Positions 13,178 to 35,724 of a DNA stretch of 39,633 bases are shown in pieces. The stretch's first letter is position 1. Every line of letters begins with the position of its first letter. This DNA comes from an uncultured Lachnospiraceae bacterium (GTDB lineage: Bacteria > Bacillota > Clostridia > Lachnospirales > Lachnospiraceae), in contig CANDKY010000029.1 of the NCBI GenBank assembly GCA_947385425.1, positions 1 through 39,633 on the forward strand. Direction: 5' to 3'. The notes beneath the pieces were generated by a model, which was given only the letters and a program-made list of their open reading frames with translations, did no database searches and was not told the origin of the DNA. The position numbers and the translations under genes are program-made.

Positions 13178-16100
13178 ATGATTAAGACAAAGAATAAAAG
13201 ATTTCTTTCCAGGGCGCTGTCTGTCGGCATTGCATTGGCATTGGCCTGCGATATGTTCCCGATGCAGAGCCTGAGGGCGCAGGAAGCGGCAGCGGTAAAA
13301 GAGGAAGGGCAGGAAGGGGAATCCGGGCAGGAAAGCGGGGAAGAGGCGCAGGAAGAGATTGCCCGGGAAGTGATAGAGATACATACAGAGGGAGAGTTCC
13401 TTGCATTTGCGGACAACTGTTTCCTGGATTCCTGGTCTGCCAATAAAGATGTATTTTTATGTGAGGATCTGGATCTGTCGGATGCGGAGTTTGGCGCTGT
13501 TCCTGTCTTCGCGGGGCATTTTGACGGACAGGGGCATACCATATCGGGTTTTTCCTATAGCGGGGACGGATATGTGGCAGGGCTGTTCCGCTATATTGAA
13601 AAAGGCGGCGTGGTAGAAAACCTGAAATTAAAAGGGGAGGTTATCGCGGCGGATGAAAAGGAATGCATCGGCGGCCTGTGCGGTGTGAATTACGGGACAA
13701 TCCGAAGATGTACTTTCCAGGGGACGGTAAGCGGCAGGACGACGGTCGGCGGCCTTGTGGGGGTCAATGAGGGTATAGGCGTGGTGCAGAACAGTTTTTC
13801 CGGCGGACGGGTGACGGGTTATTATGCCACCGGGGGGATGGTAGGCAGGAACCACGGCCTGATATCTTATTGTACAAACCGTTCATGTGTCAATAATGAT
13901 AATGAATGGGTGGAGGAAGATGATGAGATGGGCATGGGGCTGTTCCTGAGCATTAATGTCAGCGGTTCGGGAACGGATCTTTTCAGCGGCGTGGATACCG
14001 GAGGCGTCGCAGGGTATTCGGACGGTACGGTCATCCGATGTATGAATTACGGGCAGATTGGGTATGAACACACGGGGTATAATATCGGCGGGATTGTCGG
14101 CAGGCAGTCCGGCGTACTTTCTTCCTGCACCAACAACGGGACGGTGTACGGCAGGAAGGATGTGGGCGGTATCGTGGGGCAGATGGAGCCTTATATCGAG
14201 GTGGATGAGGCGGAATCGCTGCGCAACGCGGTAAATAAGCTCCATGATCTGATTGCGAAGACGATTGATGATATGCAGGCGGGGAAAAATGTGATCAAAG
14301 GGGATCTGGATCAACTGGCGGCATACAGCGAGGGGGCAACGGACGCCGGGGATGCGCTGGCCGGGCAGATGACGGATTTCGTTGACACAAATATGGATCA
14401 GGTGCAGTCCATGGCGGAACGGCTGGGCCATGTGATGGAAATGCTTCCGGATATTTTTGACGATGTTTACGATGCGGAAGACAGTTTTGCGGATGCAAAC
14501 CGGGCATTGATGGGGATCATGGAGGATCTGAAGGATGCGGGCAATATCGAAGGCGAGTATGTGGAGACGGATTACAACAGGCTTTCGCTGCTGTCAACGG
14601 TGGGCGGGAATATCTTAAGCCTGCAGCATTACCCGCAGGCGGGCGAGACAGTCAATATCGTGGCGGAGCCCAATGACGGGTACGGGCTGCAGGAGATCCG
14701 TGTAATAGACGCCTACGGCGGCGGTGTGGAGGTACAGCAGGAGAGCGGCAGGGCATATACTTTTATCATGCCGGAGCCGAATGTGCGGGTAGAGGCGTAT
14801 TTTGGCTATGAGGGTGAGGAAGGAGATGATCCCGGGGACGGCGGCGACGGGGATGATGCGGACGGCCAGCCAGGGGAAGGTACGGATAAAGACGGTGCCG
14901 GAGACGGGAGCGGAACGGATAAAGACGGTATTGGGGACGGAACAGATGAGGACGGTACAGAGAATGGAATCCCGGGCAGCCCTGTCCTTCCGGACGGCTC
15001 GGACGGCAATGGAGGCGGAGCAGGATCAGGAAACGGAGGCGGGGACGGTTCCGGCATGGGGAACGGCAGTGCGGGAACGGGCGCGGCCGATCCGGACAGC
15101 GGTGCAGGCGGCGGATCCGGAACGCCGGGGAACGGGGCTGGCGGATCCGGCACGGGAAGCGGAAATCCAGGGGGAAGTACGGGCGGAAACGGCGGATCGG
15201 CGGACATTTCCGGTGATCCGGCAGGGAGCGGCACAGGGACGTCAGGCGGTGCAGGAGGCAATACGTCAGACGGCGGCGTGGACGGCGCAGGCGGTTCCGG
15301 CAGTGCGGGAGGAAGCAATAGTGATACGTCCGGGAGTACCGGGGGAAGCGGTACGGATACTTCCGGGAGAGGGGAAGGAAACGGTGCGGATACCCCGGGC
15401 AGTGCCGGAGGGGATAATGCGGGCAATTCCGGCAGTACCGGAGGTAATGACGCGGATAATCCCGGAGGTGCGGGAGGAGGCAGTGCAGATGTACCGGGCA
15501 GCGGGGATGGAAACGGAAGCAGTGCAGGTACAGATAATTCCGGCGGCGCGGCAGGGATTGGAAACGATGCGTCAGACGGCGGGGCAGAAAAGGAAGGGGC
15601 CGCGTCCGGCGGTACACAGGACAGCGGCAGCAATGAGGCGGATAGCGCTCCGGGCGGCGGGGAGGATGTATCCGGCGGTGATGCGCAGGACGGGACGGAT
15701 GCATCTTCCGTGCAGCCAGACAGCCCTTCCGGCGGCAGCGGGGAGGCAGGAGGAGCAGACGGGGGAGACAAAGAGCAGGCATCGGCAGGGCGGCAGGCTG
15801 TCCGGATGGATCGTTTCTGGTATACTCCGGCCCGGCTTTTAAGCGTGGGTATCCGTGTTTCGGAAAGAAAGACGCTGGTGTCCTCGGCCGGCCTGCCGGA
15901 ATCCGGGGCTCAGCCGGGGGATACGGACGGTACGGGAAGTGCCGGGCCGGACAGTACGGACGGCTCAGAGAGTACAGACGGGCCTGGCAGTACGGATAAT
16001 GCGGGAAGTACCGGTAGCACGGACGGTCCAGAAAGTACAGGCGGATTGGACAGTACGGATAATGCGGGAAGTGCCGGCGGCACGGACGGTTCAGGGAGTA

Positions 16101-18388
16101 CAGACGGGCCGGGCAGTACGGATAATGCGGGAAGTACCGGCGGCACGGACGGTTCAGGGAGTACAGACGGGCCAGGCACTGCGGATGGCCCGGAGGAAGG
16201 CGGCGGGCCGGCGAAAACGGTTGTCTGCCTGAGTTCTAATCTGAGCGGGAATGCATTCAGTGAGATAAACGGTGATGCGGCAACGGTGACGGTTATTCCG
16301 GACGGGGCTTATGCCGTGGACGGGACGCCGTCGGTATCGGCAGGCGACCGGGAGGTGCCGGTAACAAGGGCCGGGGAATCCGTATTTACTTTTCCGGTGG
16401 ACGGCGGTACATACCGGGTGCATATTTCGTTCCGTAAATTGGATAAATCGCAGACGGTAAACAGTGCCAAAGGGGATATCAGCAGCGCGATCAAAGAGCA
16501 GCAGGCCGCTACGGAGAAGGTAAATGCCATTATCCAGCAGATACAGGGCAGCCAGGAGGTAACTCAGGAGCAGCTTGAGGAACTGACAAAGGCTTTGGGG
16601 GAAATGTCCGGCGCTACGTCTGCGGTACTGAGCAACCTGGGGGCTGTTTCCAATGTGGTAGGGCAGCATGTGCTTGAACGCATGGAAGCGGCGGGAAGCG
16701 ATATGACAGCGGCTTTGGATCATCTGCAGGATGCCGTGGATTCCGTCAGGGAAGCGACGAGGGATGCACGGAGCATAGTAGACTATGTGAACGGCCAGCC
16801 GAATCTTCATTTTTCAAAATTAGGCGGGGCATTTGACACGGACAGGGAAAGGCTGCATGAACAGCTCAAAGGGATGTCCGACAGTATCATGAGCCTGAGC
16901 AGCAATGCGGCGGGCTATTCGGATGTTGTAAACGATGATTTGAGGGCAGTCAATGACCAGATTAACGTAGTATTTAATTTGCTGGCGGATAATCTGACCA
17001 ATTACGGCGAGATCAGCGTGGAAGAGCTTTATGAGGATGCGGACATAGAAGACGTGGACAGTATTACCACGGGGAAAACAAATAATTGCAGGAATAAGGG
17101 AGTGGTTGAAGGGGATATCAACGTTGGCGGTATTGCCGGGGCTATGTCCATTGATGAGGAAGATCCGGAGGACAGCGCGGCAGGAAGCGTGGATTATCAG
17201 ATTGGCAGGAGATATTTTACAAAATGCATTATTACGGACAGTGTCAATGAAGGTTATGTTTTGGCAAAGAAGGACGGTGCAGGCGGTATTGTAGGGTATA
17301 TGAGGCATGGCATTGTCGTGGATTCGGAAGGCTATGGGAGCGTGGAGAGTACGGAAGGGGATTTCGTGGGCGGTATCTGCGGTGAATCCCTGACGGTGAT
17401 CCGGGACTGCTATGCGCTCTGCTCCGTTTCCGGTGGCCGGTATGTGGGCGGTATCGCAGGGTTCGCCGATACGGTGAAAAATTGTTATGCGATGGCGGAC
17501 TGCAATGCAACGATGGGCAGGAAAGGGGCGATCGCAGGGCAGACGGCAAGTTATGAGGATGCCCTGGCAGGCGAAGAGAAGGAAGAGGCCAAGGTAAGCG
17601 GCAACTATTATGTGGGCGATGATATTTGCGGCATTGACAGCATCAGTTATGTAGGTGTGGCGGAGCCGATGAAATATGAAGAACTGCTGGCTGTAGTAAA
17701 TCTTCCGACACAGTTCAGGCATCTGAAGGTAATCTACAGAGTGGATAATATATACCTGGGCGAGCAGGAGGTGAAATTCGGGGAAAGTCTGTCCGGGCTG
17801 GATTACCCGGTGATTCCCGCAAAAGCGGGGTATTACGGTGTATGGCCGGATTATTCCGGCCGGGTGATGGCAGGGAACCTGTTAGTCAAAGGCGAGTATA
17901 AGGAGGATGTTACGGTAGTGGAGAGCAGCGGGAAGCTGGCCCTGGAAGCAGAGGGGGAGCGGGAAAAGCCTTACGCGCTTGTGGAGCAGCGGTTCACTCA
18001 GGATACGGTATTGCATGCGGATTTAAGCGATATGGAGCCGCCGGAGAAGGCGATCCACAGGGAGCATATAGTATATTCCGTTGCTTTGGAAAATGCGAGG
18101 ATCGGCAGCGGCGATACTTTTGCCATCCGCCTTTATAATCCTTATGAGGATGCGGAGGTATGGGGCTTAAAGGACGGTGTTTGGACGGAATTGGAGAGCA
18201 AAGCGAGAGGACAGTATCTGCAGGTGGATATGACCGGGCCGGAGCAGGCTTTCTGCGTAGCGGAGGAAAAGTCCGGGACGTGGGCTGTCATAACAGGCGT
18301 GGCGGCAGGGCTGGCGGCGGCAGGTATTCTGGCGGCACTGATGCGGAAATGGAAAGCTGGCAGAAGAAGGGGAAAAATGCCGGAATGA
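13178..18388 (+). CDS. Giant GLUG-repeat, membrane-anchored surface protein
   Basis: A 1736-residue secreted protein. Residues 1-35 are a signal peptide. GLUG-type repeats (GGLVGVNEG, GGIVGRQSG) span about 160-337, followed by a helical segment (about 341-454) and a beta-rich repeat-like domain (about 461-541). A Gly/Ser/Asp-rich low-complexity stretch covers about 545-868 and a second, with 21-residue repeats, about 907-1008. Then come a small beta domain, a long coiled coil (about 1091-1277), a second GLUG cluster (about 1301-1460), a further beta domain and a C-terminal TM helix with a basic tail (about 1700-1736). No sortase LPXTG motif is seen. ATG 13178 follows AAGGAGG by six bases. Its pairing with the MMPL exporter is the strongest contextual clue; function is unknown. 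Confidence 0.85.
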   Translation: MIKTKNKRFLSRALSVGIALALACDMFPMQSLRAQEAAAVKEEGQEGESGQESGEEAQEEIAREVIEIHTEGEFLAFADNCFLDSWSANKDVFLCEDLDLSDAEFGAVPVFAGHFDGQGHTISGFSYSGDGYVAGLFRYIEKGGVVENLKLKGEVIAADEKECIGGLCGVNYGTIRRCTFQGTVSGRTTVGGLVGVNEGIGVVQNSFSGGRVTGYYATGGMVGRNHGLISYCTNRSCVNNDNEWVEEDDEMGMGLFLSINVSGSGTDLFSGVDTGGVAGYSDGTVIRCMNYGQIGYEHTGYNIGGIVGRQSGVLSSCTNNGTVYGRKDVGGIVGQMEPYIEVDEAESLRNAVNKLHDLIAKTIDDMQAGKNVIKGDLDQLAAYSEGATDAGDALAGQMTDFVDTNMDQVQSMAERLGHVMEMLPDIFDDVYDAEDSFADANRALMGIMEDLKDAGNIEGEYVETDYNRLSLLSTVGGNILSLQHYPQAGETVNIVAEPNDGYGLQEIRVIDAYGGGVEVQQESGRAYTFIMPEPNVRVEAYFGYEGEEGDDPGDGGDGDDADGQPGEGTDKDGAGDGSGTDKDGIGDGTDEDGTENGIPGSPVLPDGSDGNGGGAGSGNGGGDGSGMGNGSAGTGAADPDSGAGGGSGTPGNGAGGSGTGSGNPGGSTGGNGGSADISGDPAGSGTGTSGGAGGNTSDGGVDGAGGSGSAGGSNSDTSGSTGGSGTDTSGRGEGNGADTPGSAGGDNAGNSGSTGGNDADNPGGAGGGSADVPGSGDGNGSSAGTDNSGGAAGIGNDASDGGAEKEGAASGGTQDSGSNEADSAPGGGEDVSGGDAQDGTDASSVQPDSPSGGSGEAGGADGGDKEQASAGRQAVRMDRFWYTPARLLSVGIRVSERKTLVSSAGLPESGAQPGDTDGTGSAGPDSTDGSESTDGPGSTDNAGSTGSTDGPESTGGLDSTDNAGSAGGTDGSGSTDGPGSTDNAGSTGGTDGSGSTDGPGTADGPEEGGGPAKTVVCLSSNLSGNAFSEINGDAATVTVIPDGAYAVDGTPSVSAGDREVPVTRAGESVFTFPVDGGTYRVHISFRKLDKSQTVNSAKGDISSAIKEQQAATEKVNAIIQQIQGSQEVTQEQLEELTKALGEMSGATSAVLSNLGAVSNVVGQHVLERMEAAGSDMTAALDHLQDAVDSVREATRDARSIVDYVNGQPNLHFSKLGGAFDTDRERLHEQLKGMSDSIMSLSSNAAGYSDVVNDDLRAVNDQINVVFNLLADNLTNYGEISVEELYEDADIEDVDSITTGKTNNCRNKGVVEGDINVGGIAGAMSIDEEDPEDSAAGSVDYQIGRRYFTKCIITDSVNEGYVLAKKDGAGGIVGYMRHGIVVDSEGYGSVESTEGDFVGGICGESLTVIRDCYALCSVSGGRYVGGIAGFADTVKNCYAMADCNATMGRKGAIAGQTASYEDALAGEEKEEAKVSGNYYVGDDICGIDSISYVGVAEPMKYEELLAVVNLPTQFRHLKVIYRVDNIYLGEQEVKFGESLSGLDYPVIPAKAGYYGVWPDYSGRVMAGNLLVKGEYKEDVTVVESSGKLALEAEGEREKPYALVEQRFTQDTVLHADLSDMEPPEKAIHREHIVYSVALENARIGSGDTFAIRLYNPYEDAEVWGLKDGVWTELESKARGQYLQVDMTGPEQAFCVAEEKSGTWAVITGVAAGLAAAGILAALMRKWKAGRRRGKMPE
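15986..16174 (+). repeat. Three 63-bp in-frame coding repeats
   Basis: Units begin at 15986, 16049 and 16112, each with GRCAGTACGGATAATGCGGG, and encode 21 residues each (Gly/Ser/Thr/Asp-rich, GSTDNAGST...). A partial copy lies upstream from about 15948. Because the unit is a multiple of three, copy-number change would alter protein length without a frameshift. Confidence 0.9.
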
Positions 18389-20665: not shown

Positions 20666-21781
20666 ATGCCGAGAAAAGGAGAGAATATTTACAGGAGGAA
20701 GGACGGGAGGTGGGAAGGAAGGATCCGGCAGGAGGATGCATTGCCCGGGAGGCGTAATTATGTGTCGGTTTACGGGAAAACGTATAAGGAAGTCAAGAGT
20801 AAAATGGAGATGGTAAAAACCGGGCAGAATCCGTCCGGCAAAGGGTTTCCCGATGTGGAAGAGGCGGCCGGTATCTGGATAGAGGACAGGGAAGGGTATT
20901 GGAAGCCGACCACTTGCGCCGCATACCGCCAGGCTCTGGAGAAGTATATTATCCCATGCCTGGGGAGGGTGAAAATAAACAGGCTGGACAACAAAGTGCT
21001 GGAGAATTTCGCTTCGGCCCTTGCGGAAAAGGAAGGGAATGCGTTGTCTGTGAATTATCAGTCATATGTATGTGCCATTGTCATCCGGGTGATCGCGCAT
21101 GCGAAGAAAAAGTTCGGGTATCGGATGGCAGTGCCTGAAAATCCGGTGGTAAAGAGCAAAAAGAGCCCGGTTACACCGCCCGGGGAGTATGCGTTGTCTG
21201 TTTTGGAGGATTATCTGGTGGCGGACAGCGGCAGGGATGTGAGCCTGGGGATTCTGGTTGCGTTTTATACGGGGATACGCATTGGGGAATTGTGCGCGCT
21301 GAAGTGGGATGATATCGATAGTGCGGAAGGCGTTATACGGATCCGGGGGAATATCCAGCGGGTACAGGCGCCGGAAGGCGGGCAGACAAAGACGGATGTC
21401 GTCCTGCAGGCCCCGAAAACCGCAGATTCCGTACGGCTTGTGCCTATCCCGCCGGTTTTGTATCCGCTGTTGGAGCATAACCGCAGGGAGGGGGACAGTT
21501 ATGTAATCCGGGGGATGAAACATCCCTGGGCGGATCCGCGCACGGTGCAGTATCATTTTTACAAAATACTGAAAAAATGCGGGCTGGAACATTTTAATTT
21601 CCATATGCTCCGGCATGCCTTTGCCTCCCGCTGCATCGCCATGGGTTTTGACGTAAAGAGCCTGAGTGAGATATTGGGGCACAGCGATACCAGGATGACG
21701 ATGAACCTTTATGTGCATTCCTCGGTGCAGCATAAGAAGCAGCTTATGGAACGGTTTGATACTCCTATGGCGGGGAGATAG
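20666..21781 (+). CDS. Tyrosine recombinase / site-specific integrase (orphan)
   Basis: A 371-residue phage-type integrase. The N-terminus (GENIYRRKDGRWEGRI) resembles the arm-type DNA-binding domain of Tn916/phage integrases. A SAM-like core-binding domain spans about residues 60-160. The catalytic domain shows Arg205 in TGIRIGELCALKW, a probable Lys251, His313 and Arg316 in HMLRHAFASR, His339 in LGHSD and the nucleophile Tyr349 in MNLYVH, so all catalytic residues appear intact. ATG 20666 follows AAAGGAGG. No excisionase, relaxase or phage genes lie next to it, and no att repeats were recognised. It may be a remnant or control a small invertible or mobile segment. Confidence 0.92.
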   Translation: MPRKGENIYRRKDGRWEGRIRQEDALPGRRNYVSVYGKTYKEVKSKMEMVKTGQNPSGKGFPDVEEAAGIWIEDREGYWKPTTCAAYRQALEKYIIPCLGRVKINRLDNKVLENFASALAEKEGNALSVNYQSYVCAIVIRVIAHAKKKFGYRMAVPENPVVKSKKSPVTPPGEYALSVLEDYLVADSGRDVSLGILVAFYTGIRIGELCALKWDDIDSAEGVIRIRGNIQRVQAPEGGQTKTDVVLQAPKTADSVRLVPIPPVLYPLLEHNRREGDSYVIRGMKHPWADPRTVQYHFYKILKKCGLEHFNFHMLRHAFASRCIAMGFDVKSLSEILGHSDTRMTMNLYVHSSVQHKKQLMERFDTPMAGR

Positions 21782-24604: not shown

Positions 24605-24944
24605 AATTTATTCCCTGCTTGGCCTTGCAGCCAGATCCGGAAATATGGCAAGCGGAGGATTTTCAGTAGAAAAAGCAGTAAAATCAGGCAGTGCGGTATT
24701 GGTGATTGTCAGTGAGGACGCATCGGACAATACGGTAAAGCAGTTCCGTAATATGTGCAGTTTCCGTGAAATACCCATGTTCCGGTACGGGACGAAGGAA
24801 GAACTGGGGCATGCCATTGGAAAGCAGATGCGCACTTCGTTAGCCATCACAGAGGAGGGGTTTGCGAAATCCATAAGGAAGCATTTGGAGGCATTGGAAG
24901 AAGGAGACGGAGGTAGTGAGCATGGCGAAAATGAGGATACATGA
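24591..24944 (+). CDS. ylxQ: L7Ae/L30e-family ribosomal-type protein YlxQ
   Basis: A 117-residue member of the L7Ae/L30e/S12e/Gadd45 family, which binds kink-turn RNAs. Motifs seen are [17 protein letters not shown] and [18 protein letters not shown]. The frame is open upstream, but ATG 24591 follows AAGGAG and matches family starts; a GTG at 24597 is a second option. It overlaps ylxR at its start and infB at its end, so translation of ylxR, ylxQ and infB is probably coupled. Confidence 0.9.
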
Positions 24945-27900
24945 ACTTGCGAAGGAAATAGATAGGCAAAACAAAGAAATATTGTCTTTTTTGCAGGAGA
25001 AAGGCATTGAGGTCAAGTCAGTGAGCAGTTCCATCGAGGATGATGTGATTGCGCTTGTGAAAAAGCATTTTACAAAAAATGAGGAAGTGAAAGAGGAAAA
25101 ACCTATGGCGAAATCGGGAGAAACTGGCGCAGAGCAACCTAAGAAAAAGAAGAAAATTATTATTGTGGGAAATCCGCAGAACAGTAAAATGTCAGGCCGT
25201 TCCCAGCAGGGGGGTTTTTCTGCCGGAAACGGGAAAAAGCCGCAGGCACAGGGAAACGACGGCATGAAAGCGGGAAACGGCAGTGAAAGATCCGGAAACG
25301 GTAGTGAAAAGACTGGTAGCGGCAGCGGAAAGTCCGCAAACGGCAATAAGAAGCCGGGAGCAGGAAACGCGAAAGCCGGTGCAGGCAATGGGAGGACCGC
25401 AAGTACGAATGCCAGACAGGGAAATAATGTAAGGCAGGGGGCACGGCAGGAGAAACCGGCGCCTCACCGCCCGATCAAGCCTCTTACACCGCCGTCCCCG
25501 ACGCCTCCGGTTACAATGATCCCGGCATCCAGTTATACGCCGAAAAAGGAGCAGAAGGTAAAAACGGAGAGCCGGGCGGAGAATACGGAAGCAGCGTCCA
25601 TCCGGCAGCAGAGCGCGGATTTGGAGAATGCAAATGCCGCGGCTGTGATGAAAGAACAGGATATGTCCCGTACGGAGAAGGGCGGGGCAGAAAAGGCCGT
25701 GGCAGAAATAAAGCAGGAGACAGCCGGCCCTGCGGCAAATACAATACAGGACAGCGGCAGAACGGATACGGCGCAGGGAGCCGTACCGGAAAATGCAAAG
25801 CAGGAGGCAGCCAGGTTCGAGCCCGCAAAGCAGGAAAACGGCAAAACGGAAAGCACTGCCCCGGAGAGCGGAAGGATGGATGGGGCAAAACCGGAAGCCG
25901 CCAGGGCAGAGGGTGTAAAGCAGGAAAATACGCGTCAGGGAAATGGCGTCCAGAGCGGCAATGCGCGTCAGGATAACGGCCGTCAGGAGAACCGGCAGGG
26001 TTCCAGGCAGGAGCGCCAGGATAACGGACGCCAGGGAGGATATGCAAGGCAGGATAACCGCCAGGGCGGCGGCCGTCAGGATAGCAGCCGTCAGAACAGG
26101 CCGGTAAGGCCGGACAGACAGGATAGGCCCAGAAATAATGACCAGCCGAGAAGGACGGATAACAGAAATAACCGGAATGAAAACCGCAGCGATAATCGGG
26201 GAGATGGTAGGAGATATGAAGGCCAAAATCGCAGACCTTTTGAAAATAGCCAAGGGGATAGGCGTAATTCTGGCGGCGGCCAGGGCAGTACCCGCCCTTT
26301 TGGAAATAATGACCGCCCTAACAGAGGCAATGGAGGGCAGGACAATAGATTCCGCAAGCCTGCGCCCGGTAAGGGATTCGTACCTGAGAGCCCGGTCAAG
26401 GATCAGGAGAAGCATAGGGATGAAGAGAAGCGCAGAATCAGCCAGGAGAAGGATAAGCGCTCTAAGAAGGATTTGATTTACGAGGAAGATGAAACAAAGG
26501 TATCCGGCAAGAACCGGGCCGGGAAGTTCATTAAGCCTGAGAAGAAAGCGGAAGAAGTAAGGGAAGAACAGATTAAGGTTATCGTGATCCCGGATTCCCT
26601 GACCATTAAGGAGCTGGCGGATAAGATGAAGATGCAGCCCTCCGCCATAATCAAGAAGCTGTTCCTGCAGGGGCAGATTGTGACAGTGAACTCGGAACTT
26701 TCTTATGAGGAAGCGGAGAATATCGCCATAGAGTATGACATTATGTGCGAAAAGGAAGTAAAGGTGGATGTCATCGAGGAGCTTTTGAAGGAAGAGGAAG
26801 AGGCGGAAGAAAATATGACAAAAAGACCGCCGGTTATCTGTGTCATGGGCCATGTAGACCATGGGAAAACTTCTCTTCTGGATGCTATCCGTAAGACAAA
26901 TGTCACGGATAAGGAGGCCGGCGGAATTACCCAGCATATCGGGGCCTATACGGTCAGGGTAGGGAATGAGAAAATCACATTCCTTGATACGCCGGGGCAT
27001 GAGGCGTTTACGGCAATGCGTATGCGCGGCGCCAATGCAACGGATATCGCTATCCTGGTGGTGGCGGCAGACGATGGCGTGATGCCTCAGACGGTGGAAG
27101 CGATTAACCATGCAAAAGCTGCCGGAATCGAAATTATCGTGGCAGTGAATAAGATTGATAAACCAAATGCAAATATTGACAGGGTAAAACAGGAAATGAC
27201 GGAACATGAGCTGATTCCCGTGGATTGGGGCGGAAGTACGGAATTTGTGCCGGTATCCGCGAAATCGGGAGAAGGGCTTGACACTTTGCTGGAGACGATC
27301 CTTCTGACTGCGGAGATTCTGGAGCTGAAAGCGAACACGAAGCGGCAGGCAAGGGGCCTTGTCATAGAGGCGGAGCTGGATAAAGGCCGCGGGCCGGTGG
27401 CTACCGTGCTTGTCCAGAAAGGGACGTTGCATGTGGGCGATTTCATTTCCGCCGGGGCCAGCCATGGAAAAGTAAGGGCGATGATTGACGATAAGGGAAG
27501 GCGGGTAAAGGAAGCATTGCCGTCCACACCGGTGGAGATTTTAGGGCTTTCCGATGTACCGAGCGCCGGGGAAGTGTTTATTGCCCATGAAACGGATAAA
27601 GTTGCAAAATCTTACGCGGAAACATATCTGGCCCAGAATAAAGAGCGGATGTTGGAAGATACTAAAGCCAAGATGTCTTTGGACGATCTCTTTACACAGA
27701 TACAGGCAGGCAACCTGAAGGAACTGAATCTGATTATTAAAGCGGATGTACAGGGCAGTGTGGAAGCGGTGAAGCAGAGCCTGCTGAAACTGTCCAATGA
27801 GGAAGTGGTGGTAAAATGCATCCATGGCGGTGTCGGCGCCATTAATGAGTCGGATGTATCCCTGGCTTCCGCATCTTCCGCCATCATTATCGGTTTTAAT

Positions 27901-28326
27901 GTGAGGCCGGATGCCATGGCAAAGACGATTGCGGAGCGGGAAGGTGTGGATATCAGGCTTTACAGGGTGATTTACCAGGCAATCGAAGATGTGGAGATGG
28001 CGATGAAAGGTATGCTGGATCCGATTTTCGAGGAGAAGGTTATCGGCCATGCGGAGGTGCGGCAGCTTTTCAAGGCGTCGGCGGTGGGAAATATTGCAGG
28101 TTCTTATATATTGGACGGTGTTTTCCAGAGGGACTGCAAGATCCGCATAAGGAGAGAGGGCGAACAGATTTACGAAGGTGCGCTTGCCTCCCTGAAGCGG
28201 TTTAAGGATGATGTGAAGGAAGTAAAAGCCGGGTTTGAATGCGGCCTGGTATTCGAAAACTTTGATCAGATGCAGGAATTGGATATTGTGGAAGCTTATA
28301 TTATGGTGGAGGTGCCCCGCACTTAA
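24922..28326 (+). CDS. infB: Translation initiation factor IF-2 with long repeat-rich N-terminus
   Basis: GTPase that brings initiator tRNA to the 30S subunit. The 1134-residue protein has an N-terminal IF2_N motif ([17 protein letters not shown]), a Lys/Pro/Gln/Asn-rich linker of about 450 residues with RQDN- and RQEN-type repeats (about 330-440), a second IF2_N domain ([13 protein letters not shown], near 555) and the G domain from about 640: [20 protein letters not shown] and SAKSGEG. The beta-barrel and C-terminal domains follow. The core is normal; the linker makes the protein longer than the roughly 700-880 residues of many Firmicutes. ATG 24922 follows GGAGG by eight bases. Confidence 0.97.
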
Positions 28327-28408
28327 CGTGAAAAGAAATTCTAAGGCAGTAAAGGACACTGCCTAAGAATTTCTAGGATTTGCAATGGATTGCAAATCCA
28401 TTTCACGT
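28326..28408 (+). ncRNA. Three-way-junction structured RNA/DNA motif at the infB end
   Basis: Starting at the last base of the infB stop codon, ACGTGAAA (28326-28333) pairs with TTTCACGT (28401-28408). Inside it are two adjacent hairpins: a 17-bp stem (28334-28350 with 28358-28374, one A-A mismatch) and a 10-bp stem GGATTTGCAA/TTGCAAATCC (28376-28399). Only one unpaired base lies at each of two junction positions. No known RNA family was recognised. Classing it as RNA is an inference; a DNA-level element is equally possible. Confidence 0.5.
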
Positions 28409-28439
28409 GGAAGAATGCCCGGAAAGAGGGCATTCTTCC
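28409..28439 (+). repeat. Perfect 12-bp hairpin GGAAGAATGCCC/GGGCATTCTTCC
   Basis: Arms at 28409-28420 and 28428-28439 enclose a 7-nt loop. It abuts the three-way-junction motif. The arm sequence AGAATGCCCGGAA is close to the inverted repeat before rnfD (72-84). What follows is GGGTTTG rather than a T-run, so termination is not clearly indicated. Confidence 0.7.
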
Positions 28440-28510
28440 GGGTTTGTCAAGGCGGAAGGGGAGTTTCTTTTCGGGTTTGTCAAGGCGGAAGGGAATTTCT
28501 TTCCGGGTTT
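28438..28510 (+). repeat. 33-bp tandem repeat, about 2.2 copies
   Basis: Unit 1 (28438-28470) and unit 2 (28471-28502) share CGGGTTTGTCAAGGCGGAAG and end TTTCTTT; a partial third copy (CCGGGTTT) follows. The 73-codon frame through it is probably not a gene. Confidence 0.8.
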
Positions 28511-28650
28511 ATTAGAGCGTGTTTGAAAAATGCTTTCCGGCAGATGTGCGTCACAATTTGTGGGAGATTAAAAGCAAGTTTGCTTTGCCAAATGAAGGGC
28601 GCATAGCGGGCATTGTTTTTTGGGCAGTGAAGGTATTGGTTTTGGATGGG
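28511..28650. repeat. Imperfect palindromic element before rbfA
   Basis: Holds the compact hairpin AAAGCAAGTTTGCTTT, and outer segments pair loosely across it (GAAAAATGCTTTCCGGCAG against the stretch CATAGCGGGCATTGTTTTTT). The motif CGCATAGCGGGCATTG resembles CGCATAGTGGGCTTTG in the element next to rnfB. Likely a decayed copy of a dispersed element. Confidence 0.4.
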
Positions 28651-28658
28651 AGCAGTGA

Positions 28659-29027
28659 ATGAGGAAGAATAGTTTAAAAAATACAAGGATTAATGGGGAA
28701 GTGCAGAGGGCTTTGGCGGAGATTATCCGCGGGGGTATTAAGGATCCGAGGGTTAGCCCGCTGACTTCCGTTGTTTCGGTGGAAGTGTCCCCGGATTTGA
28801 AAACCTGTAAGGCATGGATGAGTGTGCTGGGGGATGAGGATGCGCAGAAGAGTACGTTGGAAGGATTGAAAAGCGCGTCCGGTTATATTAAAAATCGGTT
28901 GGCAAAGGAAGTGAATCTGAGGAACACGCCGGAGATTACATTTATTATGGATCAGTCCATTGCTTATGGCGTTAATATGTCGAAATTGATTGACGAAGTG
29001 AACAGGGGGACTGTGGATGAAGATTAA
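28659..29027 (+). CDS. rbfA: Ribosome-binding factor A
   Basis: A 122-residue KH-fold protein needed for late 30S maturation (16S 5' end). Conserved elements are INGEVQRALAEIIRGGIKDPRV, VVSVEVSPDLKTCKAWMSVLG and LRNTPEITFIMDQS. ATG 28659 follows GGGAG by several bases. It overlaps nrnA by 11 bp. In most relatives it follows infB closely; here 332 bp of repeat DNA lies between. Confidence 0.95.
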   Translation: MRKNSLKNTRINGEVQRALAEIIRGGIKDPRVSPLTSVVSVEVSPDLKTCKAWMSVLGDEDAQKSTLEGLKSASGYIKNRLAKEVNLRNTPEITFIMDQSIAYGVNMSKLIDEVNRGTVDED

Positions 29028-35455: not shown

Positions 35456-35724
35456 GTTCACTACCCGCCCTATGCGTGGCCCTGGCACCCCATCTGATTT
35501 TTTTGCATCGTTTTGAATGATGGTTTTACTTAACAGAAGATTCGCAAACTCAGGGGAAAATGGCCATGGATGGCCATTTTAGGCTGTGCCGGGCATGGAT
35601 GCCCTTCACAGCCGACCCGGACTCTGTCAGTAACTTGCCTCTTCTGTTTAGTAAAACCCCATTCAAATAAGCTGCAAAAAAATCAGATGGGGTGCCAGGG
35701 CCGCGCATAGGGCGGGGAGTGAAC
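35456..35724. repeat. 269-bp near-perfect palindrome upstream of the Rpn-like gene
   Basis: The first 52 bp (starting GTTCACTACCCGCCCTATGC) match the inverted last 52 bp at 50 positions. The next segments also pair (GAATGATGGTTTTACTTAAC against the inverse of GTAAAACCCCATTC). The centre holds two tight hairpins: AAAATGGCCAT/ATGGCCATTTT and GGCTGTG...GGGCAT/ATGCCC...CACAGCC. It carries no credible gene. It lies 100 bp before a PD-(D/E)XK transposase-like gene. It may be a non-autonomous mobile element or a substrate of that protein. Confidence 0.85.

Follow-up and report, generated by a model that had tools for sequence, protein, structure and literature searches.

The 39,633-nucleotide stretch of DNA analyzed here (the window; contig CANDKY010000029.1 of an uncultured Lachnospiraceae bacterium, assembly GCA_947385425.1) carries a compact folded segment at positions 28326-28439, directly after a gene that we take to be infB. 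Our analysis shows that this segment is a copy of a structured, non-coding repeat dispersed in Lachnospiraceae, and that the repeat sits at a TA↓R-like site (the arrow marks its left edge), with this edge on or within about one codon of the stop codon of a gene read in the same direction. Since the left edge supplies a TAG, TAA or TGA codon, the host protein stays essentially native. The initial annotation had correctly placed the start of the structure at the infB stop codon; it did not recognise that alignment with stop codons is a rule for the entire family.

Comparison of the 335-base gap between infB and rbfA with the source genome (G000; 4.42 Mb) by blastn revealed two repeat families, covering 28326-28439 and 28513-28611; at least 53 pieces of the first family were found in the genome (40 candidates scored). 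A covariance model, R1, built from 29 copies of this family, all from the source genome, yielded 126 matches there at E ≤ 0.01, the weakest of which include antisense echoes of strong copies, and 92 matches of at least 62 bits. Many scattered copies had been named beforehand as the sign of a mobile element, and the outcome of this test is positive. We read 91 of the 92 strong matches in their context (C22:24979 was left out); 14 of them come second or third in tandem arrays, which leaves 77 non-tandem copies. The core of the element spans about 115 nt (helices P1 to P4), while complete copies of about 170 nt reach a further hairpin and end with GTTGGTTAR, at which tandem units join. The consensus of this right-end hairpin module is near GGTTTTTCATGGCGGGTTTGTGCTGCCGC-GCGGCAGCATGTTGGTTAR, with the next unit beginning at the final R, and that of the left edge is TTAG/GTAG-CGTGA. 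None of the 4227 Rfam families matched 28326-28439 at the gathering cut-off, and a search of 28300-28660 at E ≤ 1 gave two microRNA models only, both below their cut-offs. Nor did the literature matches listed include such a repeat in Lachnospiraceae; the description of the structure as unreported holds to this extent.

The element was detected in 12 of 16 genomes of its genus, its own included (11 of the 15 others, which form our comparison set); as R1 was trained on the source genome only, counts in other genomes are low. The four genomes in which R1 gave no match are G007, G008, G011 and G014. Judging by matching contigs and junctions, Kineothrix alysoides and Lachnospiraceae bacterium 28-4 belong to this genus. 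At E ≤ 1e-6, at least 10 of 150 Lachnospiraceae genera, its own again included, possess the element, a lower bound given that 27 candidates were scored per genome. At four places in the source genome (C111:2984, C13:16080, C141:6829, C97:344), the element adjoins, at GTTAG, a module of another kind (GTTAGTGTGAAATCGGAGATTTCACC...GAGCGGGCGAATGGGAGTTAG); it looks as though various types of unit shared this single junction motif. At three loci (L261, L269, L270), a short version of the element with a AACATTAAG outer stem lies, as judged by eye, directly after the TTAGYGTGAG left edge of the longer version, an arrangement that resembles a nested insertion.

In 88 of the 91 copies, the strand that scores best for coding in the 300 nt upstream is the one on which the element lies; the scores come from a simple codon model trained on nine window open reading frames (ORFs), by which single assignments can be wrong. 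With coding support, 65 of the 77 non-tandem copies have the stop codon of a sense upstream gene within -9 to +48 nt of element base 1. The stop lies within -12 to +6 nt in 58 of the 77, compared with 38 of 429 A↓R sites (8.9%) around 11 window stops (rough binomial P of 1e-44). The element completes or contains the stop in 55 of the 65 stop-aligned copies: the codon straddles the left edge in 24, always at offset -2 (18 TAG, 6 TAA), and lies inside the element in 31. The second major offset is +3 (23 copies, all TGA), followed by -3 and +16 (5 each), -5 (3), and -9, -6, +6, +38 and +48 (one each). The 65 copies are distributed over the three reading frames as 32, 32 and 1, and the single copy is in the frame in which the element has no early stop. 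An A immediately precedes base 1 in all 65, and for this reason we set aside the idea that spacers were deleted after random insertion in 3' regions; the left edge itself reads TTAG in 20, GTAG in 10, TTAA in 8, TGAG in 7 and otherwise in 20. Among the 12 non-tandem copies failing this strict test, there are five at which a long open frame still ends, two that follow another repeat module, three that follow a TATAAT-like box, and two located 35 and 93 nt past a stop.

Judged by open-frame length alone, stop alignment extends to the relatives. Of 63 same-genus copies fetched, 42 lie within -16 to +48 of a stop, 8 have no long frame, and 13 are farther away, several of these being tandem units by eye; in nine other genera, 20 of 26 copies lie within -12 to +38, with 3 farther away and 3 without a long frame. 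One of these last three (L392, 1501-1616) sits in a tRNA cluster, between tRNA-Arg and tRNA-His genes, its first base at the tRNA-Arg 3' end. The second repeat family served as a control: 4 of its 21 copies are stop-aligned and three more are at -18 to -26 (one of 22 loci, at a contig end, was left out), so this family is also near gene ends, but without the exact fit. The route to the stop codons could be either targeted insertion or selection at translated-untranslated boundaries.

Another explanation would be a transcription terminator cassette, in which P4 and a T tract end the upstream transcript. At least five T among eight bases follow P4 in 33 of the 57 stop-aligned source-genome copies above 100 bits, and terminator-like matches were obtained at L075 and L123. 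However, such a T tail is present in just 5 of 63 same-genus and 5 of 26 other-genus copies, no terminator was called at P4 of the infB copy, which has rbfA downstream, and the next gene is co-directional in 61 of 65 cases, no different from control gene pairs in the same loci (101 of 107). Since the T tract is not general among the copies, we rejected an intrinsic terminator as the general identity of the element and consider this explanation very unlikely.

The infB copy (134.2 bits with R1, to whose training set it belonged) is predicted to fold into the three helices (8 bp; 17 positions with one mismatch; 10 bp) and the following 12-bp hairpin of the original description, and this layout is both the minimum-energy and the centroid structure of 28326-28439. 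The surrounding segment 28310-28450 folds with -69.6 kcal/mol against a mean of -33.4 (standard deviation 3.9) for shuffled sequences (z -9.2); none of 200 shuffles was as stable, which bears out the claim of pairing far beyond chance. In the R1 alignment, 99.7% of the cells are paired, with 71 two-sided versus 2 one-sided changes. A cross-species alignment, which was fitted to the structure and includes a few antisense matches, is 95.8% paired (sliding controls, 38-50%), with two-sided changes in 41 of 42 pairs and 551 two-sided versus 25 one-sided cells. The covariation is extreme. G-U pairs make up 0.9% of the folded pairs in 75 source-genome copies and 0.8% in 62 copies of relatives, versus 13.8% in 150 random genomic stretches. 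An RNA kept for its function is expected to pass through G-U pairs. The near absence of such pairs, together with the two-sided changes, suggests that a DNA hairpin is copied or selected, and near-perfect pairing would fit a DNA hairpin or hairpin-templated correction. Among the three ideas offered by the initial annotation, a DNA element that folds is thus the best supported.

Two sites were compared across the 16 genomes of the genus. The element is present only in the source genome both after infB and after FolD, and a second covariance model, R2, applied to all 32 loci, found matches in none but the two source-genome loci; at these sites, the copies are specific to single lineages. Counted from the first base of its stop codon, infB is separated from the start of rbfA by 335 nt in the source genome versus 29-111 nt in the 13 other same-genus genomes that could be measured, so that the view of an operon usually lacking an insert here holds within the genus. 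The source-genome FolD protein ends with CVEST at the TGA of the element, while its relatives run 3 to 12 residues past CVES (CVEMYL in G003). FolD is the single site with a readable right flank, and no obvious target duplication is found there. In the nearest genome, G013, we read orthologues of 29 host genes in 1.6 Mb, of which 27 were compared (one was paralogue-like and one cut off). By eye, the C-terminus is native to within one residue in 22 of the 27 (16 of equal length, 6 off by one), the five others being C96, C18, C9:14312, C157 and C70:7072. R2 found four elements in the 20 pieces of G013 holding these orthologues, none of them, by eye, within 120 nt after the orthologue stops. Scans of 28 host proteins with hidden Markov models agree with native ends: the galactokinase, MraY, DpaB and GlnQ-like ATPase models reach the C-termini; 7 of the 28 had no family at the cut-offs used. 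The element moves, or has moved.

Taken together, we think it probable that the repeat is a non-autonomous element that spreads as folded single-stranded DNA and is placed at the stop codons of sense genes. Its copying would resemble that of REP elements and IS200/IS605-type derivatives, and copying of single-stranded DNA would explain why Watson-Crick pairing is nearly perfect, why one end bears a tag and why no evident target duplication was seen at FolD. With its left edge at the stop codon, the element brings its own TAG, TAA or TGA and leaves the host protein essentially native; in the mRNA, it would form a harmless or mildly stabilizing 3' structure between genes.

Several observations weigh against spread as folded single-stranded DNA. 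No transposase could be tied to the element, and counts of PF01797 (Y1) genes do not track its copy number: G015 has 66 element matches and no Y1 match, G010 has 39 and one short Y1 match, and G008 has no element match and 10 Y1 matches, some of which are pieces. We therefore rejected a Y1-driven REP as far as PF01797 is concerned (models specific for RAYT were not used). A search confined to the loci of the two source-genome Y1 genes gave no strong element match (best 15.5 bits, E 0.18). The 3' untranslated regions beyond the stop are nearly empty of copies, which simple insertion leaves unexplained, and the lack of a target duplication was seen at the one FolD site. Reverse-strand folds are richer in G-U (2.9% in source-genome copies, 4.6% in relatives), so that the sense strand has some A-C mismatches and its pairing is imperfect. 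Finally, a related element occupies the infB-rbfA gap in 8 of 80 rbfA loci of other genomes (the infB end could be placed in 73), while R2, whose training set included these 8 gap elements, found none elsewhere in those loci; a related element also follows infB in G046, which belongs to another genus. This recurrence hints at a hot spot or a use. It is also what speaks for a cis-regulatory leader of rbfA, the structured RNA envisaged initially, which we nevertheless rejected and regard as hardly credible, since the element is dispersed beside unrelated genes and is missing after infB in all 15 other genomes of the genus.

Besides infB, recurrent hosts were met in the loci sampled, namely a gene presumably MutS2-like (G000 and G102), a presumed rpsH-like gene (two genera) and, within the genus, a gene that we take to be Nif3-like and a few others. 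They are too few to weigh as proof of function. In four genomes from these two genera (L099, L108, L118, L387), the element lies 5 nt beyond the stop of the rpsH-like gene, which is presumed from its protein end.

Alternatively, the element could be a functional RNA whose base must be occupied by a terminating ribosome. On the stop codon, this ribosome would cover the 5' strand of P1, and the RNA would report or use translation termination (to insulate cistrons, or in the stability or processing of the mRNA); selection would have removed copies located elsewhere. The stop positions are spread over about -16 to +24 nt, like a footprint, and not fixed at one exact position, and one reading frame is avoided (1 of 65). 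Of the few copies not at a stop, some directly follow a -10-like box and are thus close to the 5' end of an RNA (a promoter-like site was found at C38:5714; the boxes at C4:70924 and C92:9271 were seen by eye only, and a promoter search at C4:70924 found no such site), and the L392 copy begins at a tRNA end. The hosts include infB and, judging by their protein ends, presumed ribosomal-protein genes. Two findings speak against such an RNA: neither of the two orthologous sites compared has retained the element across the genus, and there are almost no G-U pairs. We consider this explanation unlikely. Somewhat bolder is the proposal that the element lands or persists only where ribosome-free RNA begins, i.e., at stops, rarely at transcription starts and at one tRNA end. 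Its insertion or survival would then be read out by translation, its own stops would stand in the frames that matter, and the left helix around the stop would make the terminating ribosome and the fold mutually exclusive. We put this forward as a tentative idea.

With regard to known systems, REP repeats come closest. One report describes REPs as palindromes of 20-40 bp near ORF 3' ends, most of the convergent ones within 20 bp, with GTAG termini that often provide a TAG stop (PMC3733652). Like GTAG REPs (BIME/REPtron, RAYT transposases), the element is a dispersed palindromic repeat with what may be a comparable tag at one end, located at ORF 3' ends (58 of 77 at -12 to +6), where its left edge supplies TAG (18 straddling the edge). 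Its unit, in contrast to these single palindromes, spans about 115-170 nt and has four or five helices. The left edge varies (TTAG, GTAG, TTAA and others), the stop supplied is TGA about as frequently as TAG or TAA, and Y1 genes do not follow its copy number. Since the stop habit and, apparently, the one-sided tag are shared but size, simple palindrome and transposase are not, we term the element REP-like, not REP. By eye, GTTAR has the same orientation at the two ends of a unit, direct and not inverted; a REPIN or inverted REP dimer was rejected accordingly. Members of the IS200/IS605 family have imperfect hairpins in subterminal position and a short motif on the left flank, and are not known to duplicate their target. 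Miniature elements derived from them may be similar to ours in the imperfect hairpins, the left-flank motif and the lack of an evident duplication (FolD only), but a partner insertion sequence with the same ends was not found in the two source-genome Y1 loci searched. Integron attC sites are folded single-strand DNA sites that adjoin stop codons and have the R-box motif GTTRRRY. The element differs in that its copies are dispersed, also after core operon genes, and, by eye, GTTAGCG does not match this motif. The TAACTGA direct repeats of Beggiatoaceae likewise supply stop codons, their forward repeats in all three frames, but they are short tandem heptamers, mostly directed toward downstream start codons, without the structure of the element (PMC4679880).

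The site in the window has the order rimP, nusA, two small ORFs, infB (24916-28326) and rbfA (28659-29027) in the list of ORFs; the names are those we presume from gene order and sequence. Table 1 gives the parts of the gap. As the stop offsets show, the 5' strand of P1 contains the upstream gene's stop codon in many other copies. The A-A mismatch of P2 (in CTAAG/CTAAG) recurs among copies, P3 is optional and missing from many elements of relatives, and the right-end hairpin module typical of complete copies could not be recognised by eye in 28440-28512. The second repeat family is MITE (miniature inverted-repeat transposable element)-like, with the ends TAGAGCGTGTTTGAAAAAT / ATTTTTCAAACACGCTCTA and about 28 pieces in the genome among the matches listed.

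Table 1. Features at the infB-rbfA gap of the window (arrow, left edge of the element).
Feature	Position	Strand	Basis
infB stop TAA; last A is element base 1 and pairs in P1; flank TTA↓A	28324-28326	+	ORF 24916-28326
Repeat core: three-way junction P1-P2-P3 and hairpin P4	28326-28439	+	fold; borders common to copies
P1 5' strand, 8 bp with 28401-28408	28326-28333	+	fold
P2 hairpin, 9+7 bp (16 pairs in 17 positions, one A-A mismatch)	28334-28374	+	fold
P3 hairpin, 10 bp	28376-28399	+	fold
P1 3' strand	28401-28408	+	fold
Unpaired single A's at the junction	28375 and 28400	+	fold
P4 hairpin, 12 bp, adjoining P1; no T tract follows in the infB copy	28409-28439	+	fold
Degenerate tail: 33-nt near-repeats similar to the 3' part of P4	28440-28512	+	listing of repeats; complete copies for comparison
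Piece of second, unrelated repeat family, ends TAGAGCGTGTTTGAAAAAT...	28513-28611	+	blastn

Elsewhere in the window, an ORF at 20666-21781, just upstream of the rimP-nusA-infB operon, presumably resembles a phage-type tyrosine integrase, and tandem 63-nt repeats lie at 15956-16207. A TwoAYGGAY RNA (RF01731, 83.2 bits) is found within an 85-nt inverted repeat at 35506-35673; the fold of the one such RNA tried is also poor in G-U (1.7%), and it might thus be a repeat of similar nature.

By staying at the stop codon, a repeat that lacks an Rfam match and occurs in at least ten genera of one family has thus come to lie behind core genes, infB among them. For REP elements, the gene-end habit is noted without an explanation in the passage cited (PMC3733652). 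The empty sites in sister species offer a clean system for studying how small mobile repeats reach the ends of genes or persist there. If insertion or survival is indeed read out by translation, the element could enter essential operons without harm. Our findings also call for caution, as strong folding and covariation beside a gene need not mean a regulatory RNA.
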